A DNA stretch of 64,000 nucleotides, taken from positions 1-64,000 of the forward strand of contig PGYM01000002.1 of the NCBI GenBank assembly GCA_002839675.1, read 5' to 3'. The notes beneath the pieces are model-generated. The model was given only the letters and a program-made list of their open reading frames with translations, was not told the origin of the DNA and did no database searches. The DNA is from Methanomicrobiales archaeon HGW-Methanomicrobiales-1 (GTDB taxonomy: Archaea > Halobacteriota > Methanomicrobia > Methanomicrobiales > Methanospirillaceae). Every line of letters begins with the position of its first letter. Position 1 is the first letter of the stretch. Positions 10,805 to 31,911 of the stretch are shown in pieces. A program made the position numbers and the translations under genes.

Positions 10805-11815
10805 TCACAGTTTGATTCGTGCAAATTCAACGAATTGGATTCCGTTAGTATGTACAGTGCCAAACAACATCTTCTTTTTGACACTGTGCGCCATCCGGAC
10901 CGAGCGCGAGATCGTGCTCATGGGAAGCGCAGCATCCTTCTCCACTGCATGTACCAGCAGGTCGGAATGCACGTTCTTCCCGCAGTAGACCCGGAAGTGG
11001 TGCCCGAATTTGTAGCCGGTCCGGGGCGTGTAATCGTGCGACCGGAGTTCGGTGTATACCTTGTCTTTCTCGGGGAGTTCCGGATCATTCTCGCGGGCGA
11101 GTTCAAAATATTCCGGGGTGCTGATGGGGACATCTCCTTTCCGGAGCTCCACGGTACCTTTTCCCATGAGATAGAGCAGTTCAACCGGTGAGAGCATGAG
11201 CCGTTCGTCATCCAGGCGCTTGCCAAAACCGGCTGCCTCGAGATCGGAGGGGGGATTAATCCGGACCATTGCGGATTTCCCGATAAGGACTGCTTTATGT
11301 TTCGAGAGCGGTGTCAGGGTAGTGCACGCATCTGCCAGGACCTGGAGCTTGATCTCGTAATACGTGAGTTCCTCTTCATCATCGACAACTGCGAGCACGT
11401 ACTGTTTGCGCATATTCCGGGACGCAACTACTTCTTCGATCAGTTTGGTAAACCGGATGGGATCGCGTTCCGAGAGCACCCGTACCAAGTAGAGCGATTC
11501 TCCGGTACCGGGTTTCTCCCCGCGTCGGAATAACCGGAAGTCATGCGGGCCGGTCTGCACCACGTATCCTCGTTCGCGGAGATCGCGGTACACCAGGAAA
11601 CTCCGCAGGAAATTGCGTTCGCTGGCGAACTCTGAAAACAGACTGTCGAACGTATAGCCGTCGATTGCGATCTTCTGGCGGTGGATGAGATAGAGCGCCT
11701 CCTGCGGTGCAAGTTTCACGCCATCCTTTTCCAGGCGCCCGTACCCGCTCTGTTCATAGAGCACGCGCCCGTCCTTTCCCACCCGCACAGCGGTGCCGTC
11801 AAATATCGCTTTCAC
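10805..11815 (-). CDS. endA: tRNA-splicing endonuclease, tandem-repeat type
   Basis: It cuts bulge-helix-bulge motifs to remove archaeal tRNA introns. Two EndA-like repeats are visible: the N-terminal degenerate copy (about residues 1-160 here) and a C-terminal catalytic copy containing RTGYKFGHHFRVY, NVHSDLLVH and a VKKKM lysine region, which supply the Tyr-His-Lys triad. This is the alpha2 homodimer architecture. The start is uncertain: GTG at 11815 gives a family-like MKAIFDGTAVRV and sits about 30 bases after TTATTATCC, which suits a leaderless start; TTG at 11887 would add 24 residues. It heads the trpS-pheS-pheT run. Confidence 0.9.
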   Translation of the reverse strand: MKAIFDGTAVRVGKDGRVLYEQSGYGRLEKDGVKLAPQEALYLIHRQKIAIDGYTFDSLFSEFASERNFLRSFLVYRDLRERGYVVQTGPHDFRLFRRGEKPGTGESLYLVRVLSERDPIRFTKLIEEVVASRNMRKQYVLAVVDDEEELTYYEIKLQVLADACTTLTPLSKHKAVLIGKSAMVRINPPSDLEAAGFGKRLDDERLMLSPVELLYLMGKGTVELRKGDVPISTPEYFELARENDPELPEKDKVYTELRSHDYTPRTGYKFGHHFRVYCGKNVHSDLLVHAVEKDAALPMSTISRSVRMAHSVKKKMLFGTVHTNGIQFVEFARIKL

Positions 11816-11933
11816 TGCCGGATATATTGTCTGTACAGGATAATAAGTCACCCCGAACTCCAAGCGGTGTTTCTGCGCGATGGGCAAATCACTGAGCGAA
11901 ATCCTTATGAATTACATTAATTCGTTTCAATGG

Positions 11934-12047
11934 CTATAAAAAGGGTAAAATTCAATATGTATAGTCAGATCGTATCTCATAAGTATGCTTATTTGCACGT
12001 CCCCGCGGGTGAATTCATTCCGGGAAATTATGGGTAATACTATAAGA
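11934..12047 (+). promoter_or_regulatory. Two TATA boxes upstream of the radical SAM/AAA operon
   Basis: CTATAAAA at 11934-11941 and CTATAAGA at 12040-12047 both match archaeal TATA boxes on the plus strand. The second would start transcription near 12070, leaving a leader of about 30 bases before the ATG at 12102. No obvious inverted-repeat operator was seen between them. Confidence 0.45.
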
Positions 12048-12101
12048 TAGATCGATCACCCACACCGGAATCATTTAACAGCCATAAAACGCGGCGGAAA
12101 A

Positions 12102-12752
12102 ATGAAGGTGCATTATACCAACGACCACGGATGCCGACGTAAGAGCGCGATCAACCTTGCAGGTTTTCTTGCACGGTCATCAGTGAACGGACCCGGCATC
12201 CGTTCCGTCGTCTGGGTGCAGGGATGCCCTCTCCATTGCGAGGGCTGTTTCAACCCGCAGTTTTTACCATTCACTCCCGCTCAGCAGGTTACCCCATCGA
12301 CCCTTGCTGACACCATTTTCGCACAGGAACCCATTGACGGGGTCACGTTCTCGGGCGGCGAACCATTTGCACAGGCAGATGCACTGGGTGAACTCGGCGA
12401 ACTCCTGCGGGAACGTGGCCATTCACTTGTCACATTCACGGGATTTTCAGCAGATCGTGTGCTCGGGTCAGCCCACCCGTCATGGAAACGCCTGCTTGCA
12501 GTCACCGATCTCCTGGTTGCCGGCCCCTATATCCCGGCCCTGAAATGCAATACACCGTTGATCGGTTCATCGAACCAGCGGATCATCCCGCTCACCGATA
12601 CCATTGCCTTGCCCGAATCCCACGCATCCCTATCAGCCGCTTCAGGACAGGTTACCGAGTTCACGATCTATGCCAACGGGACTCTTACTGCTACCGGCTT
12701 TCCCGAAGCCCGGTTTGTCAACGAGCTCGCGCACCGCTGCACGGAGGGCTGA
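12102..12752 (+). CDS. NrdG-like radical SAM activase
   Basis: A 216-residue small radical SAM protein. The cluster motif is C42-x3-C46-x2-C49 in VQGCPLHCEGCFNP, and the SAM-binding GGE motif is VTFSGGEPF. LAGFLARSSVNGPGIRSVVW before the cluster is typical of NrdG/PflA-type activases, which abstract hydrogen from a protein glycine. No class III ribonucleotide reductase lies nearby; the gene instead opens the Ycf35/AAA/WD40/Hsp70 operon, so its substrate is probably a member of that set. The next gene starts eight bases downstream. The C-terminal third (FTIYANGTLTATGFPE) has no recognised auxiliary-cluster motif. Confidence 0.85.
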   Translation: MKVHYTNDHGCRRKSAINLAGFLARSSVNGPGIRSVVWVQGCPLHCEGCFNPQFLPFTPAQQVTPSTLADTIFAQEPIDGVTFSGGEPFAQADALGELGELLRERGHSLVTFTGFSADRVLGSAHPSWKRLLAVTDLLVAGPYIPALKCNTPLIGSSNQRIIPLTDTIALPESHASLSAASGQVTEFTIYANGTLTATGFPEARFVNELAHRCTEG

Positions 12753-12760
12753 TAAGGACC

Positions 12761-13159
12761 ATGTCGCACTTCAGCCGCATCCGGACACAATTCCGTCACC
12801 GCGAGGCCCTGATCCAGTGCCTTGAGGAATTAGGCCACACGGTTGAAACCGATACCACCATCAAGGGATATCACGGGCAGCATACCGTCGATATCGCCGC
12901 GATACAATCCAGTGGCTACGGGGTCGGTTTTGTGAAGAACAGCGATGGCACCTACGACATGGTTGCCGACTGGTGGGGAGTGTCCGGCACCGGGCAGAAA
13001 AAAATTGCCGACGAGCTGAAGCAGCAGGCAGAGACGATCCAGAAGGAGTACGCGAGGAAGATGGTGCTTGAGCAGACAGCAAAGGACGGGTTTGAGGTAG
13101 TGTCGCAGACCAATGAAGCGGACGGGACCGTGCGGATTGTTGTGCGGAGGTGGACGTAG
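12761..13159 (+). CDS. DUF1257 (Ycf35 family) protein
   Basis: A 132-residue protein starting MSHFSRIRTQFRHREALIQ, the typical opening of the DUF1257 family known from cyanobacteria and red-algal plastids as Ycf35. Further family features are TTIKGYHGQHTVDIAAI and GVGFVKNSDGTYDMVADWWG, followed by a charged helix and a C-terminal beta strand (GTVRIVVRRW). The biochemical role of the family is not established. The start is supported by AAGGA nine bases upstream. Its TAG stop shares a base with the GTG start of the AAA gene, implying translational coupling. Confidence 0.88.
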   Translation: MSHFSRIRTQFRHREALIQCLEELGHTVETDTTIKGYHGQHTVDIAAIQSSGYGVGFVKNSDGTYDMVADWWGVSGTGQKKIADELKQQAETIQKEYARKMVLEQTAKDGFEVVSQTNEADGTVRIVVRRWT

Positions 13160-14718
13160 TGCAGCACAAGGAGCCGGATTTCGCGCGAAAACTGAATGTC
13201 TCCCTTCGGGCCCGTGTTACCCTGATTGTCGTGATGACGCCGGAAGAGGAGCGGGTGGTTGCGCAGGTAAAAGAGGTCTGCGAGAAATGGGAACCTTCCC
13301 GCCAGTGCATTGCCTGGGACAGCGTGGACGGGTTCTCGGTTGTCTGCGGAAATTCGGGTTTTCTCGCCCAGTCCCGCGACCCGCTTACGGCTCTTGACGA
13401 TATGGCCAAGACCGACGAGAATGCGGTGATCCTGCTCAAGGACTTCCACGAGTACTGGAATAACCCGCAGGTGAAACGCAAGATCCGCAACTTTTCCCAG
13501 AAGTTTAAGTACAGCCGGAGGACGATGGTGATCGTCACCCCGGTACAGCGCGTGCCTGAAGAGATCCGGGACGAAGCAGTCCTCATTCATTTCCCTCCCC
13601 CCGGGGCTCCTGAACTCTCAAAAGAGCTTGACAGCCTCCTTGCAACGAGCGGGATTACCAGTTCGCTCTCGGAAGCGGGCAGGGAGAAACTGATCCAGGC
13701 TGCGCTCGGCATGACACTCAACCAGGCCCGGCGCTCGTTTTCCCGGGCAATTGTCACGCACGGCACGCTTGACGACCGGGATATCGATGCCATCATCGCG
13801 GACAAGAAAGATGTCCTGAGCCAGTCAGATGCGCTTGAGTTTTACAGCCTTACCGAAAATCCCGATAATGTCGGCGGGCTTGCCCAGCTCAAGGACTGGC
13901 TCCGGCTCCGGGAGCGGGCGTTTACGCAGGAAGCCCGGGACTACGGTCTTCCTGCCCCCAAGGGCATTGCCCTTATCGGGATTCCCGGAACAGGAAAGAG
14001 TCTCACGGCCAAGATGATCGCTGATCTCTGGCACCTGCCCCTGCTCCGGCTCGATGTGGGAGCCTTATTTGGCAGCCTTGTAGGAGAATCCGAGGAGCGG
14101 ACGCGCCGGGCCCTCTCCCTTGCTGAGACGATTGCACCCTGCATCCTCTGGATCGATGAGATCGAAAAGGCATTTGCATTCGGCAGCGGCGATGCCGGCA
14201 CCAGCCAGCGGGTCTTTGCCCACCTGCTCACGTGGATGCAGGACAAGACGGCTCCCTGTTTCGTGGTGGCAACGGCCAACAACATTGCTGCCCTTCCGCC
14301 CGAACTCCTGCGCAAAGGGAGGTTTGATGAGATTTTCTTCCTCGATCTTCCCAGTACCGAAGAGCGGCGCGAGATCTTTTCCGTTCACCTGAAAAAACGC
14401 AAGTGCCTGCCGGCCGAGTTTTCCTTAGATGCGCTTGCAAAGGAGAGCGAAGGCTACGTGGGGGCCGAGATCGAGCAGACCGTGATCGACGCGATGTACT
14501 TAGCGTTCAACGAGAATATGCGCCGGGTCACCACTGAAGATATCCTCGGCTGCATGAAAACCCAGGTGCCGCTAGCAATCTCCCAGCGCGAGACCGTTGC
14601 TGCACTGCGGGCATGGCTTGCCGAGGGACGGGCTATCTCCGCGTCACGGGCAGTCCCTGCACATGGACATACCGAACGGACAATCGCGCTCGAAACCTTT
14701 GAAAGCATCCCTACGTGA
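13159..14718 (+). CDS. Ycf46-type AAA+ ATPase with degenerate N-terminal AAA-like module
   Basis: A 519-residue ATPase. The C-terminal AAA+ module has Walker A GIPGTGKS (about 274-281), Walker [10 protein letters not shown] (328-336), sensor 1 VVATANN (369-375) and the arginine-finger region RKGRFDE (385-391). [21 protein letters not shown] leading into it is characteristic of Ycf46. Residues about 60-160 look like a second AAA domain that has lost its Walker A but keeps a Walker B-like [11 protein letters not shown] and [20 protein letters not shown] at 13159 is chosen because GGAGG is eight bases upstream. The gene overlaps the WD40 gene by four bases. A protein-remodelling role is inference. 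Confidence 0.9.
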
Positions 14719-17522
14719 GCGGCATGAAGTATCCTGTTTCTGCCCCCCTCATAGGTCCGTGGCTGTACCGGCGTTCAGTTAAGGAACTCGCACAATGGGC
14801 ACGTCAGGGTGATGAGGCAGCAGTGCGGAGCCTTGCCGGGATTTTTTGCATTTCCAAAGATGAGGCTGCACGGGGCATTGCCCGGACTGCGCTGTGTTCT
14901 CTCAATTCCTTACCTGCCATTGATGCGTTCTGCACAGATGTGCTGGAACGGAACGATGCTGCATTGAACAGCATCGCGATCGAGAGCAATTACCAACCCT
15001 CTGATCCTGAAACACTGGCGCTCTTCCTCTTCATCACCGGTCAGCGGGAACGATATGCGCACTGCGACCCGTTACCGCCTCACCCGCTGCTCGCCACAGG
15101 CTATGCCCGGGCAACAAACCGGGTCCGGTTTCACACCCGCAGTGCGGCGAAAATGACTGGGCAGTACCCTGTGCTTGCAGCAGCACTTATCGGAACAGAA
15201 CAGCAAGGGAATCCGGTCGCATGGTCTGAAGAGGAATGGGAGATCGTCATTTCCGGCCTCATCCAGGACACTGAGTGGAAGGAACTCTGGCGATTGGTTG
15301 TTCATGCACCGCCATCTCTTGCAATCACTGCCTTATCCACCATGAGAGCAGCCGGGTGGAAACCCGTTGGTGAGGACCGGGTACTATGGGAAGAGATCTG
15401 CCATGCTCTGCCCGTTGCATGGAGCAGCCCGGTGCCGTATGATGCACCATCCCCACCCACGTGGAGCCCGGACAGCCAGCCCCTTCGCCTTGCTTTTTCA
15501 GGAGACTGCACCCTGCTCGCAGCCACCTGTGCTGACGGAACTGTGTATCTCTGGAATACGAAAACGGGAACACTTCTCTTCGAACTCCCCGCAGGGCCCT
15601 GCACCACCAGCGGGCTAGCCTTTTCACCCGATAACACCCACCTGCTCTGTGCGGGAACCGATGGCACACTCCGGTGCCGGGATGCCATGACAGGTACACT
15701 CCTCTGGTCGGTCGCCACCGGGGGAAAGGTCCCGGTACATTTTGCCTGTTCGCATAACGGTACGGCAGTTGTCCCCTTGAGTACCGGAGGGAAGATCCAG
15801 ATCGTTGACATGACAGATGGGCAGGCACAGGATAGTTCTGGAGGTCATGATGCCGCAGTCACCTGTTGTGCACTCTCATCAGATAACCGGTATTGTGCAG
15901 TGGGATATGTGGACGGGGCCGTGGGTATATGGGATCTTCAGCAAGCGGATTACCTGCAAACGCTGGAAGGTCTGGGCAACCCGGTCAGTTGCCTCTCTTT
16001 TGGTGAACATGGTGATGAGTGTCTCGTTATCTATGAACAGAACAAGCCCGCACGGTGGAAAATACCTTCCGGTGAACGCACCCGAACCTATACCGGCACT
16101 ACCGGCCCACTGCGTTGTTGTGCCATCACACCGGGCGATAATGCATTTGCAATTGCAGGCGATGACCGGATTCTCAGGTTCTGGCAGGCAGGAAAAAACA
16201 CTCCCATTGCAGAGATCCCCCTCTACAACCGCCCCCTTGCTGCATGTGCTTCGTCTGCTGACGGCAGGATCCTGGCTGCCGGGTGCACGAACGGCACCCT
16301 CCGAATCTATGCCATGAACACCGGTACGGTAATCCATGAAAAAAAGGCACACAAACAGGCGATAACGGCGATTGTCCTTTCGTCTTCGGCAGAGATGATC
16401 GCGAGCGCTGGAGGGGACGGTGCGGTGAAACTCTGGAACACGGATTCAGGTGAAATTATCCACACGCTCCTGAATCCTGCCGGGGGAGTGACCGGGATTG
16501 CTGCAACCCCCGATGGAGCGACAATTTTCGCAGGATATATAGACAGTAAAGTCCGGCAGATTTCATGCGAACCGGGAGTATTCAGCCGTACGCTCGATAT
16601 GTACACGAGCACCATCCTGGCGATTGCCATAAATCCTGACGGTGCCCTGTTAGCCTGCGCCGGGGGGGATTCCACGCTGCGGATATGGCATGGAACCGGC
16701 GGGCTTGTTGCCAGCGGCGAGGGACTCACCACCACCCAGCAGTGCCTTGCCTTTTCCCCGGAGGGAACGATGCTGGTCTCCGGGGGGTGGGACGGGAAGT
16801 TGCGCCTCTGGAGCATGCAGGACTGCCAGCTGCTCACAACACTTACCGGCCATACCAGTACGATCACAGCCCTTGCAATCTCACCGGATGGCACCATGCT
16901 AGCGACCGGCAGCAATGACCGGAGTGTCCGGCTCTGGACACTTTCCGATGGAAGGTGCGTTTCTGTACGGGAAGATTCCCGCAGCGAGGTGAGTGCATTG
17001 GCCATTTCTCCCGAAGGCAGCCTGCTCGCATACGCGGGAGCAGATGCAGTTATTCACATCTGCCATCTGCCGGAGGGCCGGCCTGCTCCTGATATTCATG
17101 CACTCCCGGGTACGATCACCACACTTGCATTTGCGGGAGACGGGCGGGTGCTGGTGGCCGGCTTTGATACTGGAACCGTAGCAGTCTTTTCCTGCGCAGG
17201 GCGACACCTGCTGCGAGCTATCCCAGCCCATACCTCAACAGTGACGGGGATCGCTGTTCTTCCCGGCGGGGAGTCAGTGCTGACCGGCAGTCTTGACGGA
17301 CAGGTGCGGCGCTGGAAACTGCCCTGGACCCGGCCTCTTGGTGAAACTACCCTTGATGTTATCCCGCTCATTACCGAGTATGAACGCACCTGTTCCCGGC
17401 CGGAGCCACAGGAGCAATGGACATTTCTCCACAACATGCTCGCGGCCCGGTTCTGCCATGATATCGAACTCTGCACCACTGTCAATGACGAACACATGTA
17501 TGATATCCAGATCGTGGGGTGA
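14715..17522 (+). CDS. Large WD40-repeat protein
   Basis: A 935-residue protein. Residues 1 to about 230 are helical with no recognised domain. From about 255 to 880 I count about 15 WD40 repeats, each with a pattern such as AISPDGTMLATGSNDRSVRL, enough for two seven-bladed propellers; a 45-residue tail follows. No signal peptide or membrane segment is visible, so it should be a cytoplasmic scaffold that docks partners encoded beside it. GTG at 14715 overlaps the AAA stop (GTGA); ATG at 14724 is an alternative. WD40 proteins of this size are uncommon in methanogens. Confidence 0.88.
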   Translation: MSGMKYPVSAPLIGPWLYRRSVKELAQWARQGDEAAVRSLAGIFCISKDEAARGIARTALCSLNSLPAIDAFCTDVLERNDAALNSIAIESNYQPSDPETLALFLFITGQRERYAHCDPLPPHPLLATGYARATNRVRFHTRSAAKMTGQYPVLAAALIGTEQQGNPVAWSEEEWEIVISGLIQDTEWKELWRLVVHAPPSLAITALSTMRAAGWKPVGEDRVLWEEICHALPVAWSSPVPYDAPSPPTWSPDSQPLRLAFSGDCTLLAATCADGTVYLWNTKTGTLLFELPAGPCTTSGLAFSPDNTHLLCAGTDGTLRCRDAMTGTLLWSVATGGKVPVHFACSHNGTAVVPLSTGGKIQIVDMTDGQAQDSSGGHDAAVTCCALSSDNRYCAVGYVDGAVGIWDLQQADYLQTLEGLGNPVSCLSFGEHGDECLVIYEQNKPARWKIPSGERTRTYTGTTGPLRCCAITPGDNAFAIAGDDRILRFWQAGKNTPIAEIPLYNRPLAACASSADGRILAAGCTNGTLRIYAMNTGTVIHEKKAHKQAITAIVLSSSAEMIASAGGDGAVKLWNTDSGEIIHTLLNPAGGVTGIAATPDGATIFAGYIDSKVRQISCEPGVFSRTLDMYTSTILAIAINPDGALLACAGGDSTLRIWHGTGGLVASGEGLTTTQQCLAFSPEGTMLVSGGWDGKLRLWSMQDCQLLTTLTGHTSTITALAISPDGTMLATGSNDRSVRLWTLSDGRCVSVREDSRSEVSALAISPEGSLLAYAGADAVIHICHLPEGRPAPDIHALPGTITTLAFAGDGRVLVAGFDTGTVAVFSCAGRHLLRAIPAHTSTVTGIAVLPGGESVLTGSLDGQVRRWKLPWTRPLGETTLDVIPLITEYERTCSRPEPQEQWTFLHNMLAARFCHDIELCTTVNDEHMYDIQIVG

Positions 17523-17528
17523 CTTCAG

Positions 17529-19145
17529 ATGCAGGAAAAACCACCCGTGGAAAAGAGCAGGCCGCGTCTGGGCGTGGACTTTGGCAATAGCACGACGGTC
17601 GTTGCCCTGCGGGATGAGACCGGCACAATCAGGCTCCCTGATTTTTCCGGATGGTCAACCTCCTTTCCGGTCGCCGGGCAGGAACACCACGTTCCCCGGA
17701 TTCCGTCACAAATCCGGTACAGCGATACCGGCACCCGGTACTTCGGGGCGGAGGCGCAGCAGGAGGGGATGGCACCTGCCGGTGTGGCACGATGGCTGCG
17801 CCATTACATCCTTGAGAACAGCACCGTGCAAGTCCCGGGAGCGGACGGGAAGATGACCGGGTACAGGAACGCAGGCTCTGATTTCCTCACCGCACTCCTC
17901 ACCCATGCACTCCGCAACACTACGGGCACCAGCGAAGTGGTCTTCTCCGTTCCGGTAAATGCATCCGGTATGTATTCCACATGGCTCCATGCGGTGGCAA
18001 CTGCCGCAGGGTTCAGTGTCCCGTTTTTCATCGATGAGGCCTGTGCTGCTGCACGGGGATATGGCCTGCCCCTTGTGCCCGGGTCACTCTTCCTTCTGAT
18101 CGATTTCCACCCGGACGGGCTCGATATTGCTCTTGTCACTCCATGCGAATTCTCGCCCGATGCAGGGAGCCAGCATTCCCGGGTGCTCGGGCAGGCGCAT
18201 GATGACATCGGCGGATCGGTGATCGACGCGTGGATGGTGCAGGATATCTTTACCCGGAACCGGTTGCAGGAAACCGATCCCAGGACCGCCCGGCTGCTCC
18301 CCCTTATCCGGAACGAAGCGCAGCGGGTCCGGCTGGCGCTGGTGCAGGATTCGGAAGCGGAAGTCCGTATGAGCGATCCGGTGTCAGGATTTTCTCTCGC
18401 CGAACAGGTCAGCAGGACGGACCTTTGCCGGATCTTTGACGAGCGGAGACTGTTTGCAACCCTCAACCGCACCATCGACCGGGCACTGTCCGTGTCGGGC
18501 ATACACGGACAGGAAGAGAAGCGGATCACGGCTGTGCTGATGGTGGGGGAGTGCAGCGCGATTCCCTGCGTGCAGGACGCGATAAAACAGCGATGGGGAG
18601 CCGGGAGGGTTTACTGCGATCATCCGACCGATGCGATTGCCCGGGGTGCGGCAATGGCGAGCCCGGAAATCCTTGAACCCAACCGGATCCGGAATGATTA
18701 TGCCATACGTCACTGGGACCCCGTTGCCCGGGAATACCGGTACCGGTTTATCGTCCGTAACGGGGCCCGCTACCCCAGTGCCGGGCAGGTTGCACGGTTC
18801 ATCATCAGCGGGGTTTACGACGGGCAGGCGTACCTGGGCATCCCGCTTTGCGAGATTTGCACTGCGGGAGATGACCCGCACAGCCACATCGAACTGGTCT
18901 CAAATAACAAGGGAGAACTGCAGATCGCCGGGCCTGCTTCCGATGCAATGCCGGCAGTATGCCCGGCACTCGTGAACATGCAGGAACCAACCCTGCTCCA
19001 TGCATCACCCCCGGCAAAAAAAGGCGAACCGCGTTTTGAACTCACGTTTTTCCTTGACCGGCAGGGATACCTGTGCCTCACTGCACGGGACCTGCTCACC
19101 GGTCTTATCGTAAAACGGGATGCTCAGGTATTCAGGCTGAATTAA
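17529..19145 (+). CDS. Degenerate Hsp70/DnaK-like ATPase-fold protein
   Basis: A 538-residue member of the actin/Hsp70 superfamily. Phosphate loop 1 is LGVDFGNSTTVV (residues 14-25), the second-lobe signature is IGGSVID (227-233) and the adenosine region is VLMVGECSAIP (336-346). Phosphate loop 2, normally DLGGGT, reads DFHPDG (192-197), so the glycine-rich loop is lost and ATP turnover may be altered. The C-terminal 160 residues form a short beta-rich substrate-binding-like part ending in a strand with GYLCLTARD. It begins six bases after the WD40 stop. It is not the housekeeping DnaK: no dnaJ or grpE is adjacent. Confidence 0.85.
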   Translation: MQEKPPVEKSRPRLGVDFGNSTTVVALRDETGTIRLPDFSGWSTSFPVAGQEHHVPRIPSQIRYSDTGTRYFGAEAQQEGMAPAGVARWLRHYILENSTVQVPGADGKMTGYRNAGSDFLTALLTHALRNTTGTSEVVFSVPVNASGMYSTWLHAVATAAGFSVPFFIDEACAAARGYGLPLVPGSLFLLIDFHPDGLDIALVTPCEFSPDAGSQHSRVLGQAHDDIGGSVIDAWMVQDIFTRNRLQETDPRTARLLPLIRNEAQRVRLALVQDSEAEVRMSDPVSGFSLAEQVSRTDLCRIFDERRLFATLNRTIDRALSVSGIHGQEEKRITAVLMVGECSAIPCVQDAIKQRWGAGRVYCDHPTDAIARGAAMASPEILEPNRIRNDYAIRHWDPVAREYRYRFIVRNGARYPSAGQVARFIISGVYDGQAYLGIPLCEICTAGDDPHSHIELVSNNKGELQIAGPASDAMPAVCPALVNMQEPTLLHASPPAKKGEPRFELTFFLDRQGYLCLTARDLLTGLIVKRDAQVFRLN

Positions 19146-19159
19146 TACGGAGAGAGAAA

Positions 19160-19363
19160 ATGACCATGCAGGAACTGGAAATTACGATTGACAACGAAGG
19201 CAGGGTACTGATTCACGTCAACGGGGTAAAAGGAGAAGATTGTCTCGCGCTGACAAAAAACCTTGAAAATGCGGTCGGCGATGTGCAGGAGCGATCCTTT
19301 TCTTCGGACTACTATGAACAGCCGGTCACTGTATCCCAATCGCAGAAAAACGGGCTGCGGTAA
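19160..19363 (+). CDS. DUF2997 small protein
   Basis: A 67-residue protein with the DUF2997 pattern: beta strand ELEITIDNEGRVLIHVNG, then VKGEDCLALTKNLENAVGDV and a C-terminal SDYYEQP. DUF2997 proteins occur beside Ycf35 and Ycf46 homologues in bacteria (from memory), which supports reading the six genes here as one system. GGAGAG six bases upstream supports the ATG at 19160; an in-frame ATG two codons later is also possible. A single Cys in GEDC and the Tyr pair could be modification sites for the radical SAM protein, which is speculation. Confidence 0.82.
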   Translation: MTMQELEITIDNEGRVLIHVNGVKGEDCLALTKNLENAVGDVQERSFSSDYYEQPVTVSQSQKNGLR

Positions 19364-20494: not shown

Positions 20495-21334
20495 TTAACC
20501 GGCCAGTTCCCGTACCCTGGCAATATTCCCCCGATCATCCCGCCGGTCATCGACCGGTGTCTCGCAGACGAGGGGCAGGTCCTTAAAGGCCGGGTGGTGG
20601 AGGATGCGCCGGAACCCGTCCTCCCCGATAAAACCCATGCCGATATGCTCGTGCCGGTCAAGACCGCTGTTCCGGTCGGCTTTCGTGTCGTTCAAGTGCA
20701 CAACTTTGAGGTTCTTTATACCGAGTAATTCATCGAATTGTGCCACCGTCTCTGCGATGCCCTCATCAGTCCTCAGTTCGTAGCCTGCGGCAAACGCATG
20801 GCAGGTGTCAAAGCAGATGCCCACGCGGGCGGGGGTATCGATTCCGTCCATGATACCCCGGATATGCTCGAAACTGCTCCCGACACTGTTCTTCTCGCCC
20901 GCGGTGTTCTCAAGGAGCAGCATCACGGAATTACCCGAAGCGGAAAGGGAGGTATTGATCGCTTTGATTACCCGCGCTCTCCCACCGGCAATCCCGTCCC
21001 CGAGGTGGTGCCCGAGATGCGTGACAAGATAGGGAATTCCCAGTTTCCCGCACCGGTCAAGTTCCTCGGTTAAGGAGGTGATGGATTTTTCGTAAACCTC
21101 CGGTTTCGGGGAGGCAAGGTTCGGGAGATAGGGCATGTGGTCGACCGGGAGGAGACCGGTTGTTTTAATTTTGGCCCGGTACGCTTCGCAATCTTCATCA
21201 GTCAAGGGTTTGAATCCCCATCCCCGCGGGTTTCTTGAGAACTGCTGGAAGACATCGCAGCCGGCATCCATTGCCCGGTCCACTGCGAGATCGAGCGAGC
21301 CAGCCATTGAAACATGAACACCGACACGTACCAT
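20495..21334 (-). CDS. nfo: Endonuclease IV (AP endonuclease)
   Basis: A 279-residue TIM-barrel enzyme that cleaves DNA 5' of abasic sites in base-excision repair. Metal-binding and family motifs are VGVHVSMAGSL, THLGHHLGDG, LLLENTAGEKNSVGS, VGICFDTCHAFAAGY, HLNDTKADRNSGLDRHEHIG and LVCETP, all intact for a three-zinc site. The ATG at 21334 is preceded by AAGGTG at good spacing, so the upstream ATG at 21352 is rejected. Together with the OGG gene at 3034 it covers glycosylase and AP-endonuclease steps, though the genes are not linked. Confidence 0.95.
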   Translation of the reverse strand: MVRVGVHVSMAGSLDLAVDRAMDAGCDVFQQFSRNPRGWGFKPLTDEDCEAYRAKIKTTGLLPVDHMPYLPNLASPKPEVYEKSITSLTEELDRCGKLGIPYLVTHLGHHLGDGIAGGRARVIKAINTSLSASGNSVMLLLENTAGEKNSVGSSFEHIRGIMDGIDTPARVGICFDTCHAFAAGYELRTDEGIAETVAQFDELLGIKNLKVVHLNDTKADRNSGLDRHEHIGMGFIGEDGFRRILHHPAFKDLPLVCETPVDDRRDDRGNIARVRELAG

Positions 21335-21417
21335 TGCACACCTTGTATGCATTCCGGTTCGGGGCAGAGCTATGATAAGGTTGTGATCGTACCGGGCAAA
21401 AAAAGGCCGAAAAAAAG

Positions 21418-31186: not shown

Positions 31187-31911
31187 CTCGTACTATTCAG
31201 TCTCGAAAAGAAACGGGAAAAAGGTATGCGTTGGGGGCAGGTTTTTCCACGGTTATTGCGCGAAGGCTGGATCCTGTACTTCAAATTTATTTTCTGATGA
31301 TACCCTGATGGCGTCATCCGGCCGCCACGACAGGACGGGTTGTGGCATCTCCGGAAACTGATCCGGGCATGCCGGAGATCAGTTCCGGTAAAAGAGGGGG
31401 TGGGAGCCCCTCATGTGCCCGGAGGGGTACCCACCCCTCAAGATAATGAGGGGGGACCCCCTACCCCCCACTCTTTCGAAAGACAGGGGCCCACCCCCCT
31501 CCGGTTGCATGCATCCGGCCACCGCTTCCGATGGAGTCACGACGGATGGGCCATCCCGTCTTTCAAAATAAAAGGGGGGGTGGGTACCCCTCTCTCAGCA
31601 TGACAGGGGGGTACCCCTCCCCCACTCTTTTGAAAGACAGGCTCCCACCCCCCCCTCCGGTTGCATGCACCCGGGCGCGGCTTCGCATGGAGACACGACG
31701 GAGAGTGTGACTCACGATCGCCAAATTCGCGAGGGGGGTGGGGGCCCCTCTTAGACCCGGAGGGGTACCCACCTCCTCCCCCGCTCAAAAAAATGAGGGG
31801 GGACCCCCCACCCCCCTGTCCTCAGCAAGACGGGGTACCACCCCCCACTCTAGGGAATCACCCGGTCGCATTGCGGAAGTTTATCGGGACAAGACAACCG
31901 TCCCAGGATTC
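31187..31911. repeat. Mosaic of G-run/C-run palindromic repeats
   Basis: This 725-base gap has no credible gene. From 31394 to 31860 it is built of recurring modules. Module 1, GAG(G)nTGGGnnCCCCTC, occurs at 31394-31412, about 31573-31592 and 31731-31750. Module 2, CCCGGAGGGGTACCCACC, is at 31419-31436 and 31756-31773. Module 3, ATGAGGGGGGACCCCC, is at 31446 and 31793, with looser copies at 31602 and 31829. Module 4, GAAAGACAGG...CCGGTTGCATGCA, is at about 31479 and 31632, 153 bases apart. Runs of four or more G or C occur throughout. The remainder (31187-31393) shows nothing notable. Confidence 0.85.

Follow-up and report, generated by a model that had tools for sequence, protein, structure and literature searches.

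The six-gene operon and its genomic setting

We analysed a 64,000-nucleotide window, positions 1 to 64,000 of contig PGYM01000002.1 (C2) in the 2.47-Mb genome of Methanomicrobiales archaeon HGW-Methanomicrobiales-1, in which six plus-strand genes form an operon at 12102-19363. In order, these encode a short NrdG/PflA-type, activase-like radical-SAM protein (rSAM; 12102-12752, 216 amino acids (aa), Pfam Fer4_12 7.7e-29), a DUF1257/Ycf35 protein (12761-13159 with an ATG at 12761, 132 aa, Pfam PF06868 2.4e-23), a Ycf46-type AAA+ ATPase (hereafter AAA; 13150-14718, GTG start, 522 aa, Pfam AAA 4.5e-31 with AAA_lid_3), a WD40 protein (14715-17522, GTG start, 935 aa, Pfam WD40 1.8e-80), a lidless Hsp70-like protein (17529-19145, 538 aa, Pfam HSP70 1.9e-11 over the nucleotide-binding domain (NBD) only) and a DUF2997 protein (19160-19363, 67 aa, Pfam PF11211 6.1e-15). 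The rSAM and DUF1257 genes are 8 bases apart, the DUF1257 and AAA genes overlap by 10 bases and the AAA and WD40 genes by 4 (an in-frame ATG lies 9 bases after the GTG start of the WD40 gene), and spacings of 6 and 14 bases precede the Hsp70-like and DUF2997 genes. The sequence and a Pfam scan bear out an earlier note on this DNA, which had described a co-directional row of six genes with gaps of at most 14 bases and two overlaps. The divergent region upstream (11888-12101), which separates the operon from endA on the minus strand, offers 214 bases of space for one promoter and is presumed to contain it.

In an even sample of the phylum, DUF1257 occurred in 12 of 295 genomes, every one of them from the window's family, and close relatives in the AAA tree that bear names belong to Methanoregula and Methanolinea, of the Methanoregulaceae. 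The same genes stand in identical order in all 14 other Methanoregulaceae loci examined (11 from the phylum sample together with L049, L050 and L091; locus L017 is cut inside the Hsp70 gene by the contig end). The insertion site has two landmarks that lie outside the system: to the left endA, for the tRNA-splicing endonuclease (10805-11887, minus strand; identified by Pfam and synteny), and to the right a gene for an nfo-like endonuclease IV (20495-21352, minus strand; named from its sequence and placed by synteny and empty sites). The operon is flanked by endA in 13 of the 14 loci and has nfo on its opposite side in 11 of those 13, the L017 contig stopping short of nfo and L019 lacking it inside the fetched stretch. 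Among 11 relatives without the operon, none of the six genes was found near endA, and in eight (L220, L221, L223, L224 and L226-L229) nfo adjoins endA, the gap between aligned ends being about 70-100 bases in L221 and L226-L229 and 240-310 bases in L220, L223 and L224. One of these, L221, is a close relative whose endA is 89% identical. Since nfo and endA adjoin without operon genes between them in these eight relatives, the gene set behaves within the archaeal family as one heritable block that is gained or lost whole.

A mobile island within the family was also considered and rejected on the grounds that 13 of the 14 loci share one site. The exception, L014, has an intact six-gene operon and no match to any usual flanking gene; this operon sits at another site, and the block may have moved there. 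The CAP-domain gene downstream of the operon is an inconsistent companion across loci. The sole tRNA called in the window lies at 31387-31477, its anticodon undetermined.

Relatives in bacteria, plasmids and phages

A genome collection scanned with the AAA alignment yielded more than 560 relatives, of which the best 80 were followed by local profile searches of their loci. The nearest AAA relatives are surrounded by these partners, in changed order, in Bacillota, Chloroflexota, Planctomycetota, Verrucomicrobiota and Actinomycetota and on one cyanobacterial plasmid (L036, L051-L058, L062, L202, L203 and the truncated L186), with some loci missing individual partners. The order is WD40-Hsp70-DUF1257-AAA-DUF2997-rSAM in Sporomusa, AAA-WD40-WD40-Hsp70-DUF1257-DUF2997-rSAM in Anaerolineales and DUF1257-DUF2997-rSAM-AAA-DUF1257-WD40-GrpE-Hsp70 in Planctomycetota. 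A gene for GrpE immediately precedes that for Hsp70 in L036, L053, L056, L057, L058 and L114 and follows the AAA gene in L060 and L063.

In an AAA tree of 91 rows, built by a quick method with midpoint rooting and with long branches elsewhere in the tree, most of the loci that carry the set group in a single clade with 34 members (approximate likelihood-ratio support (SH-aLRT) 99). The archaeal rows form one monophyletic group (SH-aLRT 100), sister to Sporomusa (99) and nested among bacterial rows. Because of this nesting under midpoint rooting, the direction of transfer was probably from bacteria to archaea, and a single transfer with vertical inheritance thereafter explains the tree most simply. 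The set is no archaeal speciality: by the tree it was acquired from bacteria, which often add GrpE. Bacterial members of the window's AAA clade have an Hsp70-like gene in 10 of 19 loci and a WD40 gene in 14 of 19, some of these loci being truncated; the Hsp70 labels of L059 (a canonical DnaK) and L111 (probably one) in the tree were left out of the Hsp70 counts.

We also surveyed Planctomycetota and Chloroflexota by DUF1257, without selection on AAA, and obtained matches in 33 of 392 genomes (many of them partial) and 5 of 400 genomes, respectively. We read 14 Planctomycetota loci with a near-full-length DUF1257: all have DUF2997 and 12 have AAA, while rSAM is present in four (in one case 7 kb off), an Hsp70-like gene in two and WD40 in one. 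Four further loci came from Chloroflexota, and two of them have the complete set of six partners. On these partner counts, AAA, DUF1257 and DUF2997 are the core, rSAM is a frequent fourth member, and WD40 and Hsp70 are an extension of the core that is concentrated in one AAA clade. The tie between the WD40 and Hsp70-like genes and the rest of the set, proposed in the earlier note, is therefore real, though not universal: both are always present in the window's family and usually in the bacterial members of its AAA clade, but they are mostly missing from distant DUF1257 loci.

Several further features of these loci deserve mention. AAA, DUF1257 and DUF2997 lie close together in Rhizobium and Aeromonas phages (L046 5863-9263; L048 3491-6626), cyanophage P-SSM2 has DUF2997-DUF1257 and, over the stretch that was read, no AAA (L047 3802-4378), and mycobacteriophage Dylan has AAA, with DUF1257 and DUF2997 not found within 6 kb; a scan of viral contigs with a single AAA sequence returned zero relatives. 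Some Planctomycetota operons contain two distinct DUF1257 genes (L056 8760-9146 and 11528-11932; L055 4855-5289 and 7640-8044), and many proteins of this phylum match DUF1257 just in its C-terminal region (positions ~60-102 of the model; L169-L183) and possibly form a separate family. Several open frames resembling DUF1257 fusions were discarded, being in a different reading frame from AAA. In a cyanobacterium (L114 12073-15077), a GrpE with an N-terminal helix-turn-helix of the Cro/C1 type is encoded between the Hsp70-like and DUF2997 genes, beside a response regulator. A plasmid of Treponema succinifaciens has an AAA and radical-SAM pair amid contractile-injection and baseplate genes (L038 1977-13578), and the Pseudanabaena plasmid cluster includes an AAA_21 ATPase gene resembling that of a Geminocystis plasmid (L036 10143-11210).

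Properties of the encoded proteins

The AAA protein keeps its catalytic motifs in the alignment (Walker A GIPGTGKS, Walker B ILWIDE and the lid). It is 44-47% identical over ~490 aa to cyanobacterial chromosomal Ycf46-type proteins, which were assigned to Ycf46 from their near-universal presence there rather than by comparison with a named Ycf46, and 59-61% identical to two cyanobacterial plasmid copies. Both the full-length similarity and the single active C-terminal AAA module of the Ycf46 family are found in it. When its N-terminal half was compared with its own C-terminal half (hhalign), the two matched in register over the sensor/lid part with E 0.0059 and low probability, and the N-terminal half is possibly a dead or degenerate AAA domain.

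The two small proteins are firmly assigned to their families: DUF1257 matches PF06868 over its full length with 82.7 bits (cut-off 22.2) and DUF2997 matches PF11211 with 55.3 bits (cut-off 24.1), while sequence searches of the PDB gave no usable match for either. The confident AlphaFold2 (AF2) model of DUF1257 (mean predicted local distance difference test score, pLDDT, 86.8) has an alpha+beta fold in what may be a helix-grip-like arrangement. Fold comparison gave middling similarity to PR-10 and related chains (Z 6-7.2, root-mean-square deviation ~3 over 80-90 residues), tied with KA1 domains, and Foldseek returned no match at E <= 0.001. DUF2997 is modelled by AF2 as beta-beta-alpha; its fold comparison gave no usable match, an absence that is no sign of a new fold. 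Its Gly25-x2-Cys28 is invariant in 25 of 25 aligned sequences and stays conserved in a wider set of 46. This motif is the one support for the idea, raised in the earlier note, that DUF2997 may be a substrate of rSAM.

Bacterial counterparts of the WD40 protein (L053, L056) have HEAT_2 repeats in the N-terminal part followed by beta-propellers, and the archaeal WD40 gene has no tandem DNA repeats except one 15-base stretch. The Hsp70-like proteins comprise an NBD and a beta substrate-binding domain and stop at ~530 aa, just past the latter, so that the alpha-helical lid is missing. In the window's protein the phosphate-2 motif reads DFHPDG, as against DFGGGT in intact relatives, and the adenosine motif reads VGECS; the NBD is not intact, and the description of the protein as degenerate stands. 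The motifs are intact in 16 of the 30 Hsp70-like sequences compared, including all six with a GrpE neighbour, and lost or partly lost in 14 of the 24 without one (p = 0.02, which is indicative since the rows are related). All seven sequences examined from the window's genus have lost them, and a canonical DnaK and GrpE are encoded separately in the window's genome. Within this genus, mean identity falls from 82% for AAA through 67% for DUF1257, 60% for DUF2997 and 58% for rSAM to 44% for Hsp70 and 41% for WD40. Mean nonsynonymous divergence (dN) is 0.13 for AAA, 0.62 for WD40 and 0.56 for Hsp70, the last two evolving ~5x faster than AAA; synonymous divergence (dS) is high, and dN is below dS in the pairs shown.

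The alignment of rSAM shows the full NrdG/PflA signature (CX3CX2C, NGPGxR, GGEP and GSxNQ). In the window these read CPLHCEGC and SGGEP for the cluster and GGE motifs, both of which are kept across the alignment, except that the first Cys is lost in L058, and the protein thereby has the CX3CX2C and GGE that define the radical SAM superfamily. It nevertheless matches the Pfam radical-SAM model slightly below the cut-off and reaches 86-87 bits against the NrdG equivalog TIGR02491, for which the cut-off is 126.1. Its nearest solved relative is the activating enzyme of pyruvate formate-lyase (E 4e-7). In nearly all genomes compared, rSAM is present only alongside the operon. The NrdD of the same genome is apparently split into a 728-aa body whose match ends before the glycyl-radical end (L231, C1:508914-510638) and a putative second part, encoded separately on another contig as a protein of 120 aa that contains Cys pairs and RVTGYL (L232 1315-1677; C2 ~364305).

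Discussion

We propose that the six genes make up one functional unit, an AAA-powered, two-layer system for protein remodelling and modification that is coupled to an activase-like rSAM. We infer both the mechanism and the client, and hold the proposal tentatively, at somewhat less than an even chance. The Ycf46-type AAA+ ring would supply ATP power and remodel the client, with DUF1257 and DUF2997 as small dedicated partners or adaptors. WD40 and the Hsp70-like protein would form a fast-evolving platform that recognises or holds clients and diverges along with them; Hsp70 may run an active GrpE-driven cycle in bacteria and have a largely structural role in Methanoregula. The NrdG/PflA-type rSAM would then modify the exposed client, or DUF2997 through its invariant G-x2-C. 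Such a scheme of scaffold, remodeller and modifier, put forward in outline in the earlier note, is compatible with the parts. In cyanobacteria, the Fe-S protein next to DUF2997 and DUF1257 is the [4Fe-4S] ferredoxin Fed7, so that the core may have a general part in Fe-S or radical chemistry. That cluster, together with the binding of Fed7 to a DnaJ-like protein (PMC4284462), supports a link of the core to Fe-S chemistry and chaperones. Several observations nonetheless weigh against the scheme. WD40 and Hsp70 are mostly missing from distant core loci, some of which also lack a nearby radical-SAM gene, and modification therefore cannot be the only job of the core. The presence of DUF2997 without a nearby radical-SAM gene in phages and cyanobacteria weakens its role as substrate, and a Pfam scan of the six genes found no glycyl-radical enzyme.

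Other explanations would account for parts of these data. That the genes are chance neighbours in one genome finds nothing in its favour beyond the variable gene order in bacteria, and is refuted by the neighbourhood survey: order is identical in every Methanoregulaceae locus examined, the block is conserved in the archaeal family and its partners recur in several bacterial phyla. Nor is it at all probable that rSAM is simply the cell's NrdG, the activator of anaerobic ribonucleotide reductase, with the other genes as bystanders. No other protein of its genome resembles NrdG more closely (87 bits), and the genome does encode an NrdD, if apparently a split one; yet besides the sub-cut-off score, a full-length NrdG-like protein is missing from nine of the ten relatives without the operon (best ~34 bits), and because of this we reject a general NrdG function for the family and regard this explanation as largely refuted. 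A system for biological conflict with viruses, akin to the chaperone-thresholded systems that Kaur et al. (2020) described, in which WD40 and Hsp70 would be a variable sensor and rSAM would arm a peptide, is a more serious contender, albeit an unlikely one. It would suit the patchy distribution and cross-phylum transfer, the rapid evolution of WD40 and Hsp70 and the carriage of the core by phages. Some loci have defence genes as neighbours: in one from an Anaerolineaceae genome (L059 11591-13447), genes for an EcoRI-type restriction endonuclease and its methylase separate AAA from DUF1257, RloB/ATPase and DndB genes lie near AAA, DUF1257 and DUF2997 on the Geminocystis plasmid (L037 6168-8098 and 22696-23520), and related classes in Kaur et al. 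have AAA proteins with a dead N-terminal domain, standalone radical SAM proteins and beta-propellers (PMC7159879). However, the Methanoregulaceae locus is fixed among housekeeping genes at one site in 13 of 14 cases, unlike a defence island, and dN is below dS. Scans of the operon and of extra genes in its relatives turned up no effector domain and neither MoxR nor vWA, and PADLOC gave no whole-system match, only generic AAA and WD40 cross-hits.

It is about equally doubtful that the operon is an iron-sulphur (Fe-S) or redox maturation or repair system whose function is that of the Ycf35-DUF2997-Fed7 cluster and Ycf46 in cyanobacteria, with rSAM replacing the ferredoxin. The host family consists of methanogens, which are strict anaerobes without photosynthesis, the operon has no gene for a cluster scaffold or cysteine desulphurase, and many relatives live without the gene set. 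On the other hand, a DUF2997-DUF1257-Fed7 cluster has been described in cyanobacteria, where Fed7 binds a DnaJ-like protein, low iron and low inorganic carbon elicit a response of fed7, and a fed7 mutant copes poorly with iron limitation (PMC4284462); we see the DUF2997-DUF1257-ferredoxin arrangement in Nostoc (L134). The operon that contains slr0374/ycf46 responds to oxidative stress and to shortages of iron, sulphur and nitrogen (PMC7496141), and ycf35 and ycf46 are jointly missing from freshwater red-algal plastids (PMC5940233).

The core families, the cyanobacterial cluster and chaperone, AAA and radical-SAM systems of other make-up are already known (PMC7159879), whereas we found no description of this gene combination in the open-access literature, most subscription journals lying outside the search; DUF2997 or DUF1257 is named in just three of the open-access papers, and the set is reported in none of these. 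Ycf35, Ycf46 and DUF2997 are conserved in cyanobacteria, the first two also in many algal plastids, without a settled role. Their recurrent partners in archaea and bacteria (rSAM, Hsp70 with GrpE, and WD40), which behave as a single block of gain or loss in one archaeal family, give them a defined and testable partner set, and the retention of Hsp70 in the operon while its ATP-binding motifs decay offers a natural series. There is a modest chance that these genes represent an undescribed class of machine that ties an AAA+ remodeller and Hsp70/GrpE firmly to rSAM: a protein would be unfolded, or kept open, before undergoing radical modification, possibly at the invariant Gly/Cys of DUF2997. DUF2997 would then be a small radical- or thiol-bearing subunit, and plastid Ycf35 and Ycf46 would be relics.

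The set can be compared with four known systems. NrdG and the pyruvate formate-lyase activating enzyme are likewise short radical-SAM proteins with the same four motifs, but the operon protein falls below family cut-offs, has no glycyl-radical enzyme in its operon and, in nearly all genomes compared, occurs only with that operon. The DnaK-GrpE pair shares the NBD and beta substrate-binding domain, with GrpE adjoining in the bacterial versions; it differs in that the Hsp70 of the set is lidless and has lost its NBD motifs in Methanoregula, and no DnaJ was seen in the set. MoxR and vWA genes are what defines the FtsH ternary and beta-propeller ternary systems, in whose description DUF1257 goes unmentioned and Hsp70/GrpE appear in another class only (PMC7159879). 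We rejected membership of the FtsH ternary class, as neither MoxR nor vWA was found in the operon or in the extra genes of relatives that were scanned, although an AAA with an active C-terminal domain, a standalone radical SAM protein, beta-propellers and a multi-gene chaperone logic are common to both, as an inactive N-terminal AAA domain may be. Finally, the cyanobacterial and plastid Ycf35-DUF2997-Fed7 cluster has its ferredoxin where the operon has rSAM, an unlinked AAA and neither an Hsp70-like nor a WD40 gene, and a Pfam scan of the six archaeal genes revealed no ferredoxin, so the operon is not itself a Fed7 cluster. The two are alike, however, in the adjacency of DUF1257 and DUF2997, in the Fe-S protein encoded beside them and in the presence of a Ycf46-type AAA in the same genome.

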